A stretch of DNA of 64,000 nucleotides from Thermoleophilaceae bacterium. GTDB taxonomy: Bacteria > Actinomycetota > Thermoleophilia > Solirubrobacterales > Thermoleophilaceae. The DNA is taken from the NCBI GenBank assembly GCA_040901445.1, contig JBBDYQ010000001.1, forward strand, positions 1 to 64,000. Reading direction: 5' to 3'. The position numbers and the translations under genes are program-made. The notes under the pieces were generated by a model. That model saw only the letters and a program-made list of their open reading frames with translations. It searched no databases and was not told the origin of the DNA. Within the stretch, counting starts at the first letter, position 1; every line of letters begins with the position of its first letter. Below are positions 4,026 to 53,730 of this stretch, in pieces.

Positions 4026-4667
4026 GTGGAACCCGCCGACCGCACGCTCCGCGCCGAGGGCGTCGAGTCGATCCCGGAGGGCCTCTGGGACCGGCTCCGG
4101 GCGGAGCCCGAGCGTGCGCCGGAGCTGATCGCGCTGGCGGCGGCGGAGCGCTTCGCCGCGCCGGCCCAGCGCTGGGTGGAGCTCGTCGGCAGCGGGCCGA
4201 AGGCGGCGGAGGAGGCGCGCAGGAAGCACGTGCGGCTGTCCACCCTGGAGGGCGCGGCCCTCGGGATCGGCGGCTGGGTGACGGCCGGCCCGGACGCGGC
4301 CGCGCTCGTGTGGATCCAATGCCGGATGGTGTTCTTCATCGCCGCCTCCCACGGCTTCGATCCCACCCACCCCATGCGACCGGCCGAGCTGCTGGCCCTC
4401 TACGAGGTCTACGAGACCCCCACGCAGGCGCGCGAGGCCCTCGACGGGCTGGGCACGCCGCTCGCCCGGCAGATGGTGGAGCGCAAGCTCGCGTCGTCTG
4501 GCGACGACAAGGTGGCGCAGCGGCTCCTCAAGCTCGCGACCCGGCGGCTGGCCAAGCGCGGCGCGCTGCGGCTCGTGCCCTTCATCGCCTCCCCCCTGAA
4601 CGCCGTGAGCAACCGTGCCGCCACGGCGGACCTCGGCATGCGGGCGCTGCGCTACTACGGTGGCTGA
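4026..4667 (+). CDS. EcsC family protein
   Basis: 213 residues from GTG 4026; an in-frame ATG at 3981 would overlap the start codon of the divergent ferritin-like gene. The centre has the EcsC-like hydrophobic/amphipathic pattern (Gly-rich A-x-G-x-x-G-G-W at about residues 75-85, then an aliphatic helix), followed by a helical half ending in Arg/Tyr/Gly. EcsC proteins are membrane-associated and poorly understood; in Bacillus EcsC is linked to the Ecs transporter. No transporter partner is adjacent here. A convergent hairpin follows. Family assignment is by pattern recognition; function is open. Confidence 0.7.
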   Translation: MEPADRTLRAEGVESIPEGLWDRLRAEPERAPELIALAAAERFAAPAQRWVELVGSGPKAAEEARRKHVRLSTLEGAALGIGGWVTAGPDAAALVWIQCRMVFFIAASHGFDPTHPMRPAELLALYEVYETPTQAREALDGLGTPLARQMVERKLASSGDDKVAQRLLKLATRRLAKRGALRLVPFIASPLNAVSNRAATADLGMRALRYYGG

Positions 4668-4684
4668 GGCGCCGTCACACCACC

Positions 4685-4729
4685 GAACGTCCCGCGCTAC
4701 CCCCTACAGGGGGGTACTCCGGGACGTTC
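4685..4729. terminator. Convergent terminator hairpin
   Basis: Outer arms GAACGTCCCG (4685-4694) and CGGGACGTTC (4720-4729) are perfect. Inner arms TACCCCCT (4698-4705) and AGGGGGGTA (4708-4716) add a second stem. It separates the convergent EcsC-like and SDR genes. Confidence 0.8.
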
Positions 4730-4736
4730 ATGAGCG

Positions 4737-5417
4737 TCAGGCCCGCCCGTACACCGGGATCGCCGCGCCGCTCGTGGGCGCGGAGTCCTCCGACACGAGG
4801 AAGCGCACGACCCTGGCGATCTCGTCCGGTGACACCCAGCGCGAGTGGTCGGCGTCCGGTGACGCCGCGCGGTTGGCCGAGGTGTCGATCACGCTCGGCA
4901 GGATCGCGTTGGCGCGCACTCCGGCCGCCCGGTAGTCGGCATCGAGCGCGCGCACGAACGCGAGCACCGCGGCCTTGGCGGTGCTGTATGCGGCGGCGCC
5001 CGCGAACGGCCGCAGCGCCGCGCGCGCGGACACGGCGACGAACGAGCCACCGCCCCGCTCCACCAGATGCGGCATCGCCGCGCGCGCGAGGAGAAAGGCC
5101 GGGCGCAGGTTGAGGCGCAGCAGGCGCTCGAACTCGTCCGGCTCGGTCTCGTGGACGAGCGGCCCGGAGGAGAAGCCGCCGACGAGGTCGACCACGGCCG
5201 AGAGGTCGTCGACCGCGGCGACGGCCGCGGCCGCCTCGCCCGGGTCGAACAGGTCGGCGCGGACGAGCGTGAGCCCGGCTGCCTCCTCCATCCGCTCGCG
5301 CTCGGATTCGACCAGCCAGGTGGCCCAGACCGGTCGCTCCGCGGACAGCAGCTCGCGGACGACCGCCGCGCCGAGCGCGCCTGTGCCGCCGGCCACGAGG
5401 ACACCTCCGCCGGTCAT
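4737..5417 (-). CDS. Short-chain dehydrogenase/reductase
   Basis: 226 residues from ATG 5417 (an in-frame GTG at 5423 is possible). Classical SDR features are present: N-terminal GGTGALG nucleotide loop (about residues 10-16), the Asn-containing L-N-L-R segment, a catalytic Ser in the V-A-V-S-A-R strand and the Y-S-T-A-K (YxxxK) active site. The last residues show the P-V-Y-G type tail of this family. It probably uses NAD(P)H on an alcohol or ketone substrate; substrate unknown. Its -10 box TAGCGT lies 8 bases upstream of the start. Divergent from the OB-HD gene. Confidence 0.85.
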   Translation of the reverse strand: MTGGGVLVAGGTGALGAAVVRELLSAERPVWATWLVESERERMEEAAGLTLVRADLFDPGEAAAAVAAVDDLSAVVDLVGGFSSGPLVHETEPDEFERLLRLNLRPAFLLARAAMPHLVERGGGSFVAVSARAALRPFAGAAAYSTAKAAVLAFVRALDADYRAAGVRANAILPSVIDTSANRAASPDADHSRWVSPDEIARVVRFLVSEDSAPTSGAAIPVYGRA

Positions 5418-52960: not shown

Positions 52961-53461
52961 CTAGGACTCCGTGCCGTCGATGACCCACGTCCCGTCCTCG
53001 CGGACGAGGTTGAACGTGGTCTCGACGTTGGAGAAGTCGTCGCTGATGACGGCGCTTGCTGTGTCCCCGTCGACCCTGAAGCCCGACGTGATGATGTCGT
53101 CCTCGCCGTACTGGGGCTTGGTGTGGGACTGCTCGAAGAGCTCGCAGCGCTCCTCGCGGGTGTCGCCCACGAAGGACTGCTCCTCGAGGAACTTGTCCGA
53201 CATCAGATCGCAGGGGCCCTCGAGCAGCCAGGTGACGAGGGTCTCGCGGATGGCCTCCTCATCGTCCTCCGAAGCGGGGCCGCCGGCGGTCTCGCCCGTG
53301 TCGGTGGGCTCCGCCTCGGTGGGCGTGCTCTGAGTGGTGGCAGGCTGCGACTCCGTGGTGGGCGTCGTGGCGTCCGCGGCCGGCTCCTTGTCCTCGTCAT
53401 CACCCCCGCAACCGGTGACGAAGAGGGCGAGGGCGGCGGTGACGATGGCGAGGTGGCGCAT
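52961..53461 (-). CDS. Small lipoprotein with NTF2-like domain
   Basis: 166 residues from ATG 53461. Lipobox V-T-G-C (Cys18), then Gly/Asp and a Thr/Pro/Ser-rich tether (about 25-65), and a C-terminal domain (about 70-166) with E-A-I-R-E-T-L-V-T-W-L and a late G-T-W-V-I-D-G, suggestive of an NTF2/SnoaL-like or DUF4878-type fold. Surface lipoprotein of unknown role. Divergent from the selenocysteine tRNA. Confidence 0.75.
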   Translation of the reverse strand: MRHLAIVTAALALFVTGCGGDDEDKEPAADATTPTTESQPATTQSTPTEAEPTDTGETAGGPASEDDEEAIRETLVTWLLEGPCDLMSDKFLEEQSFVGDTREERCELFEQSHTKPQYGEDDIITSGFRVDGDTASAVISDDFSNVETTFNLVREDGTWVIDGTES

Positions 53462-53596: not shown

Positions 53597-53602
53597 TAAT
53601 CT
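53597..53602 (+). promoter_or_regulatory. tRNA-Sec -10 box TAATCT
   Basis: TAATCT ends 7 bases before the first base of the tRNA (53610), so transcription should start at, or within a base of, G1 of the mature tRNA. Confidence 0.6.
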
Positions 53603-53609
53603 CGCCCGC

Positions 53610-53702
53610 GGAGCGGCAGGGGTCTGGTGGCCCATCCGGTCTTCAAAACCGGCAGGGCGGAGCAGCCCTCCGCTTGGATGGTTCGATTCCATCGCCGCTC
53701 CG
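53610..53702 (+). tRNA. selC: Selenocysteine tRNA (anticodon UCA)
   Basis: About 93 bases. Eight-base acceptor stem GGAGCGGC (53610-53617) with GCCGCTCC (53694-53701), plus discriminator G 53702; CCA not encoded. D-stem of five to six pairs with a tight TGGT loop, anticodon stem CCGGT/ACCGG (53636-53640, 53648-53652) with loop CTTCAAA giving anticodon TCA (53643-53645). Long variable arm GCGGAG/CTCCGC (53657-53662, 53668-53673). T-arm GATGG-TTCGATT-CCATC (53677-53693). The 8+5 acceptor/T-stem, long variable arm and UCA anticodon define tRNA-Sec. No selenoprotein or selABD gene is seen in this window. Confidence 0.95.
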
Positions 53703-53704
53703 TG

Positions 53705-53730
53705 GGCGCCGGCGTGAGAGCGTCGGCGCC
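53705..53730. terminator. Hairpin downstream of tRNA-Sec
   Basis: Ten-base arms GGCGCCGGCG (53705-53714) and CGTCGGCGCC (53721-53730), one G-U pair, loop TGAGAG. Likely ends the tRNA transcript. Confidence 0.7.

Follow-up and report, generated by a model that had tools for sequence, protein, structure and literature searches.

We analyzed a window of 64,000 nucleotides, the forward strand of contig JBBDYQ010000001.1 from position 1, of a Thermoleophilaceae bacterium in the order Solirubrobacterales (Thermoleophilia, Actinomycetota; genome of 3.54 Mb). We concentrated on its gene for selenocysteine (Sec) tRNA, selC, whose promoter is probably placed so that transcription begins on the first base of the mature tRNA (G1). 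The window has a G+C content of about 72 to 73%, and the locus comprises the following features.

53597 to 53602, plus strand: TAATCT, the -10 element (TANNNT) of the selC promoter; 37 of the 80 selC genes compared in the order have a TANNNT at this spacing
53603 to 53609, plus strand: discriminator CGCCCGC (7 nt), whose last base, C(-1), forms half of a pyrimidine-purine (YR) initiator
53610, plus strand: predicted transcription start, identical with mature base G1 (from register conservation and calibration on leaderless mRNAs)
53610 to 53702, plus strand: tRNA-Sec (selC), with anticodon TCA, an 8-bp acceptor stem, discriminator base G73 at 53702, and no encoded CCA
53705 to 53730, plus strand: 11-bp G+C hairpin, 3 nt behind the selC acceptor stem, without a T run

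The neighbors of selC are a lipoprotein-like gene on the minus strand, which starts at 53461 and diverges from selC, and a DUF2277 gene that converges on it.

ARAGORN called a tRNA-SeC with anticodon tca at 53610 to 53702 on the plus strand, and the Rfam model RF01852 matched 53610 to 53701 at 68.7 bits (gathering score, 47). In the predicted fold, the acceptor comprises 8 bp and the T stem 5 bp, and the variable arm is long. By score, UCA anticodon, stems, variable arm and G73, the gene belongs to the bacterial tRNA-Sec family (RF01852), which bears out an earlier note on this DNA that had recognized the hallmarks of a Sec tRNA here. The coordinates also agree with its statement that TAATCT ends 7 nt before G1. 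TANNNT, a simplified motif, is rare in the window (52 occurrences on both strands, P = 0.0004 per position). In the regions upstream of the selC genes of the order its frequency is 0.0017 per position, so low that a chance match at exactly 7 nt has a probability under 0.2%. The 40 nt upstream of the selC of the window contain no further TANNNT, and no match to a -35 consensus was found upstream of the gene. Promoters with TANNNT and a weakly conserved -35 have been described in actinobacteria by differential RNA sequencing in P. acnes (PMC3848588).

We compared 80 selC genes of Solirubrobacterales, placing G1 by pairing anchored on the T arm, which may be off by one at a few outgroup loci where the discriminator was read as C. 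TANNNT ended 7 nt before G1 in 37 genes, 6 nt before it in 5 and 8 nt before it in none; any other distance was represented by 0 to 3 genes, and flanking DNA predicts 0.13 genes per register by chance. This geometry (6 or 7 nt) was found in 23 of the 31 selC-bearing genera, from three families of the order. The 37 loci with a spacing of 7 form 34 clusters at more than 50% upstream identity, and their mean pairwise identity from -60 to -15 is 0.304, compared with 0.298 expected from composition. Because these flanks are as different as random DNA, the shared register does not reflect common ancestry of a long block. Position -1 was C or T in all 42 loci of the geometry class (37/37 at spacing 7), and position +1 was G. 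These selC genes thus share a hallmark of leaderless tRNAs: across species, the promoter keeps a constant distance to mature base 1.

As controls, we used 74 non-Sec tRNAs from the same genome and three relatives. Here TANNNT lay mostly 8 to 13 nt before G1 (mode, 10 to 11), and a single gene had it at 6 nt and none at 7 (Fisher P = 4e-14 for selC versus controls at 6 or 7 nt, with loci treated as independent). If transcription starts 7 to 9 nt behind the -10 element, this distance suggests that ordinary tRNAs of the clade have a leader of about 2 to 6 nt, and tRNA-Sec none. In the genome under study, many non-Sec tRNAs (L002 to L044) have their own TANNNT 8 to 13 nt before G1, implying very short leaders. 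The sole non-Sec tRNA of this genome with TANNNT 6 nt before G1 is a tRNA-Lys(UUU) (L137, G000:C10, near 118137 to 118211). We considered it as a second leaderless-like tRNA and took the match as chance, as the geometry is missing from the tRNA-Lys(UUU) genes seen in relatives.

The distance from a -10 element to the transcription start was calibrated on leaderless mRNAs, by measuring the distance from TANNNT to start codons across 244 kb of this genome. At 6, 7, 8 and 9 nt, respectively, TANNNT preceded ATG in 5, 8, 12 and 6 cases and GTG in 7, 7, 4 and 3 cases; before internal codons there were about 0 to 2 per distance. The enrichment is strong at 6 to 9 nt for ATG and at 6 to 8 nt for GTG. 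A start on G1 therefore fits the spacing of 7 nt, within a calibration about 3 to 4 nt wide. That selC has the same spacing as leaderless mRNAs, as had been proposed, is only roughly true: 7 nt is central to the enrichment between 6 and 9 nt without being unique in it. The TANNNT-to-start register is one that selC shares with the leaderless mRNAs of Actinomycetota; the functional start is the start codon in the latter and the 5′ end of the tRNA in selC.

The geometry recurred beyond the order. In a phylum-wide search, 109 other Actinomycetota selC genes had TANNNT at 6 nt in 27 cases and at 7 nt in 18, compared with 1.3 expected for each. Culturable actinobacteria that have the geometry include Planobispora takensis NBRC 109077, Actinoallomurus spadix KCTC 9252 and Actinomadura craniellae. 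Position -1 was C or T in 44 of the 45 genes with the geometry versus 32 of the 55 without it (P = 1e-6), and no non-Sec tRNA among 33 from four other Actinomycetota had TANNNT at 6 or 7 nt (P = 7e-7). Among about 108 selC genes from many phyla, 23 had it at 6 to 8 nt, compared with about 6 expected; these included Myxococcota, Acidobacteriota, Desulfovibrionaceae and others. The -10 element is 10 nt away from G1 in one Streptomyces selC and 16 and 30 nt away in two enterobacterial selC genes (L208 and L181), and the geometry may therefore be absent from well-studied models. These enterobacterial genes, of the E. coli type, share the 8-bp acceptor and the UCA anticodon with the selC of the window but differ in having a real leader for RNase P.

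Conservation of the register, specificity relative to the control tRNAs and recurrence in Actinomycetota are as expected if a start on G1 is under selection, and G1 in particular is singled out by the one-base sharpness across species together with the pyrimidine at -1. We therefore consider it probable, from these comparisons of sequence, that the -10 element is kept by selection so that transcription starts on G1 and no RNase P cut is needed. According to this model, selC would be a one-gene transcription unit with a sigma-70-type -10 box, held at the register where RNA polymerase begins on G1 of a C(-1)/G(+1) initiator. The primary transcript would then begin as mature tRNA-Sec, making the RNase P cut dispensable, and the tRNA would either carry a 5′ triphosphate or lose it later to a pyrophosphohydrolase. 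Its 3′ end would come from the usual trimming and CCA addition. A likely reason for such an arrangement is that the 8-bp acceptor is awkward for RNase P, while transcription would guarantee an exact 5′ end; a similar point about the unusual acceptor has been raised to account for tRNA-Sec genes that template CCA (PMC5143459).

Transcription might instead start 1 to 2 nt upstream of G1, leaving a minimal leader to be cut by RNase P, so that tRNA-Sec would be the extreme of a clade with short leaders. The comparative evidence strengthens the earlier proposal of a start on mature base 1 and would still accommodate such a leader. The seemingly short leaders of the other tRNAs of the clade, the RNase P RNA encoded in the genome and the variation of starts by 1 to 3 nt at leaderless mRNAs all suit this alternative. 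Against it, tRNA-Sec stands sharply apart from the controls, at 7 nt rather than 8 to 13, with a far narrower distribution, and the nearly invariant pyrimidine at -1 (42/42 and 44/45) is ill-suited as the first base of a transcript but favorable at -1 if transcription begins on G1; we regard a minimal leader as unlikely. Start selection in bacteria is flexible, and starts could also be mixed (G1, G2 and -1), or a second promoter could lie upstream, with only part of the pool leaderless. At the loci with a spacing of 6, G2 is the eighth base after the -10 element, and the width of the mRNA calibration would allow such a mixture. However, the first acceptor pair would be lost if transcription began on G2, and the lack of a second TANNNT close upstream of the selC of the window speaks against another promoter, which leaves this possibility quite improbable. 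The lack of a -35 consensus could mean that TANNNT is another conserved element, or chance, and no promoter at all. We give this hardly any credence, as 37 plus 5 of 80 genes hold the register in otherwise unrelated upstream DNA, TANNNT is also found ahead of leaderless mRNAs and further tRNAs in this genome, and the combination with a weak -35 is the actinobacterial type cited above.

Several observations weigh against a start on G1 brought about by selection. Since starts vary between 6 and 9 nt behind TANNNT in this genome, one sequence cannot fix the base, and transcription may begin at -1, a disfavored pyrimidine, or on G2. The geometry is missing from roughly half of the order's selC genes and from most of those outside Actinomycetota. 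The control tRNAs have weak YR signals, which makes their true leader lengths uncertain, and the relatedness of the loci makes the Fisher P values optimistic. Finally, the genome has an RNase P RNA (G000:C25:46286-46658, 195.4 bits).

The selC genes of the order without TANNNT 5 to 9 nt upstream form a second class of 37, at least 27 of which stand first in a selC-selA or selC-selB operon; none of the 42 genes of the geometry class has selA or selB as a neighbor. Conserved upstream bases in this operon class are T(-1), in 30 of 37 genes, and C(-3), in 31 of 37; we infer that this class is the leader-bearing form. In some of its members (among L084, L085, L092, L093, L098, L103 and others), a single T separates G73 from an ATG, and excision of the tRNA would therefore leave a leaderless selA or selB mRNA. 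A rule of monocistronic versus operon selC holds within the order; we did not generalize it, as the cross-phylum trend is opposite and weak (P = 0.02). An encoded CCA was likewise dropped as a correlate, being absent from the geometry class (0/42) and missing in the operon class as well, while both kinds occur elsewhere.

RNase P is generally taken to produce the 5′ ends of bacterial tRNAs (for example, PMC3848588 and PMC4681348), a view shared by differential RNA-sequencing studies of actinobacteria, and we found no description of a bacterial leaderless tRNA-Sec in the open-license literature, which omits most subscription journals. The closest parallel is Nanoarchaeum equitans, which makes leaderless triphosphate tRNAs through strict promoter placement (PMC10100707). 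In both systems a strict promoter distance would put the start on the mature end, and the same kind of sequence evidence points to it. In N. equitans, however, RNase P is lacking, every tRNA is leaderless, the promoter is of the archaeal type and the 5′ triphosphates have been shown, whereas here a single tRNA with a bacterial -10 element is concerned, in a genome that has RNase P RNA. For this last reason, selC may work like the RNase P-free kind of leaderless tRNA, yet is no member of it. According to the earlier note, transcription of vertebrate tRNA-Sec starts on base 1; if true, the likeness would be convergent, between promoters without common descent. The vertebrate tRNA-Sec gene likewise has an upstream promoter (PMC8362101) but is transcribed by the eukaryotic RNA polymerase III from upstream proximal and distal sequence elements (PSE/DSE).

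More tentatively, and with slightly less than even confidence, we propose that a promoter-defined 5′ end, bypass of RNase P and a 5′-triphosphate tRNA-Sec are widespread in Actinomycetota and some other phyla, whether ancestral or repeatedly evolved, with tRNA-Sec as the sole RNase P-exempt tRNA in bacteria that have RNase P. If true, this exemption would be a lineage-wide exception to RNase P maturation and a parallel to the leaderless tRNAs of Nanoarchaeum and to the start that the earlier note gives for vertebrate tRNA-Sec. It would account for the exact 5′ end of a tRNA with an unusual 8-bp acceptor, and would raise the question of whether SerRS, SelA and SelB accept a tRNA with a 5′ triphosphate or read this end.

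A search behind selC found no terminator with a T run; the hairpin at 53705 to 53730 is probably a terminator, possibly of an actinobacterial type, or a trailer structure. The earlier note had advised searching the genome for selA, selB, selD and genes bearing a Sec insertion sequence (SECIS), and would have abandoned its prediction had Sec machinery been missing. That objection does not apply: the genome encodes SelB with an adjoining SelA (PF03841, 405.7 bits), SelD (379.8 bits) and an FdhA whose reading frame contains a TGA followed by a perfect-stem hairpin. On the strength of these genes, the host very probably uses Sec. At L321 (G000:C10, about 4164 to 4910), a formate-dehydrogenase-like alpha subunit has an in-frame TGA in the context ..NQARI-U-HSSTVPSLG.., followed after about 11 nt by a GGTCCCGA/TCGGGACC hairpin that is probably a SECIS.
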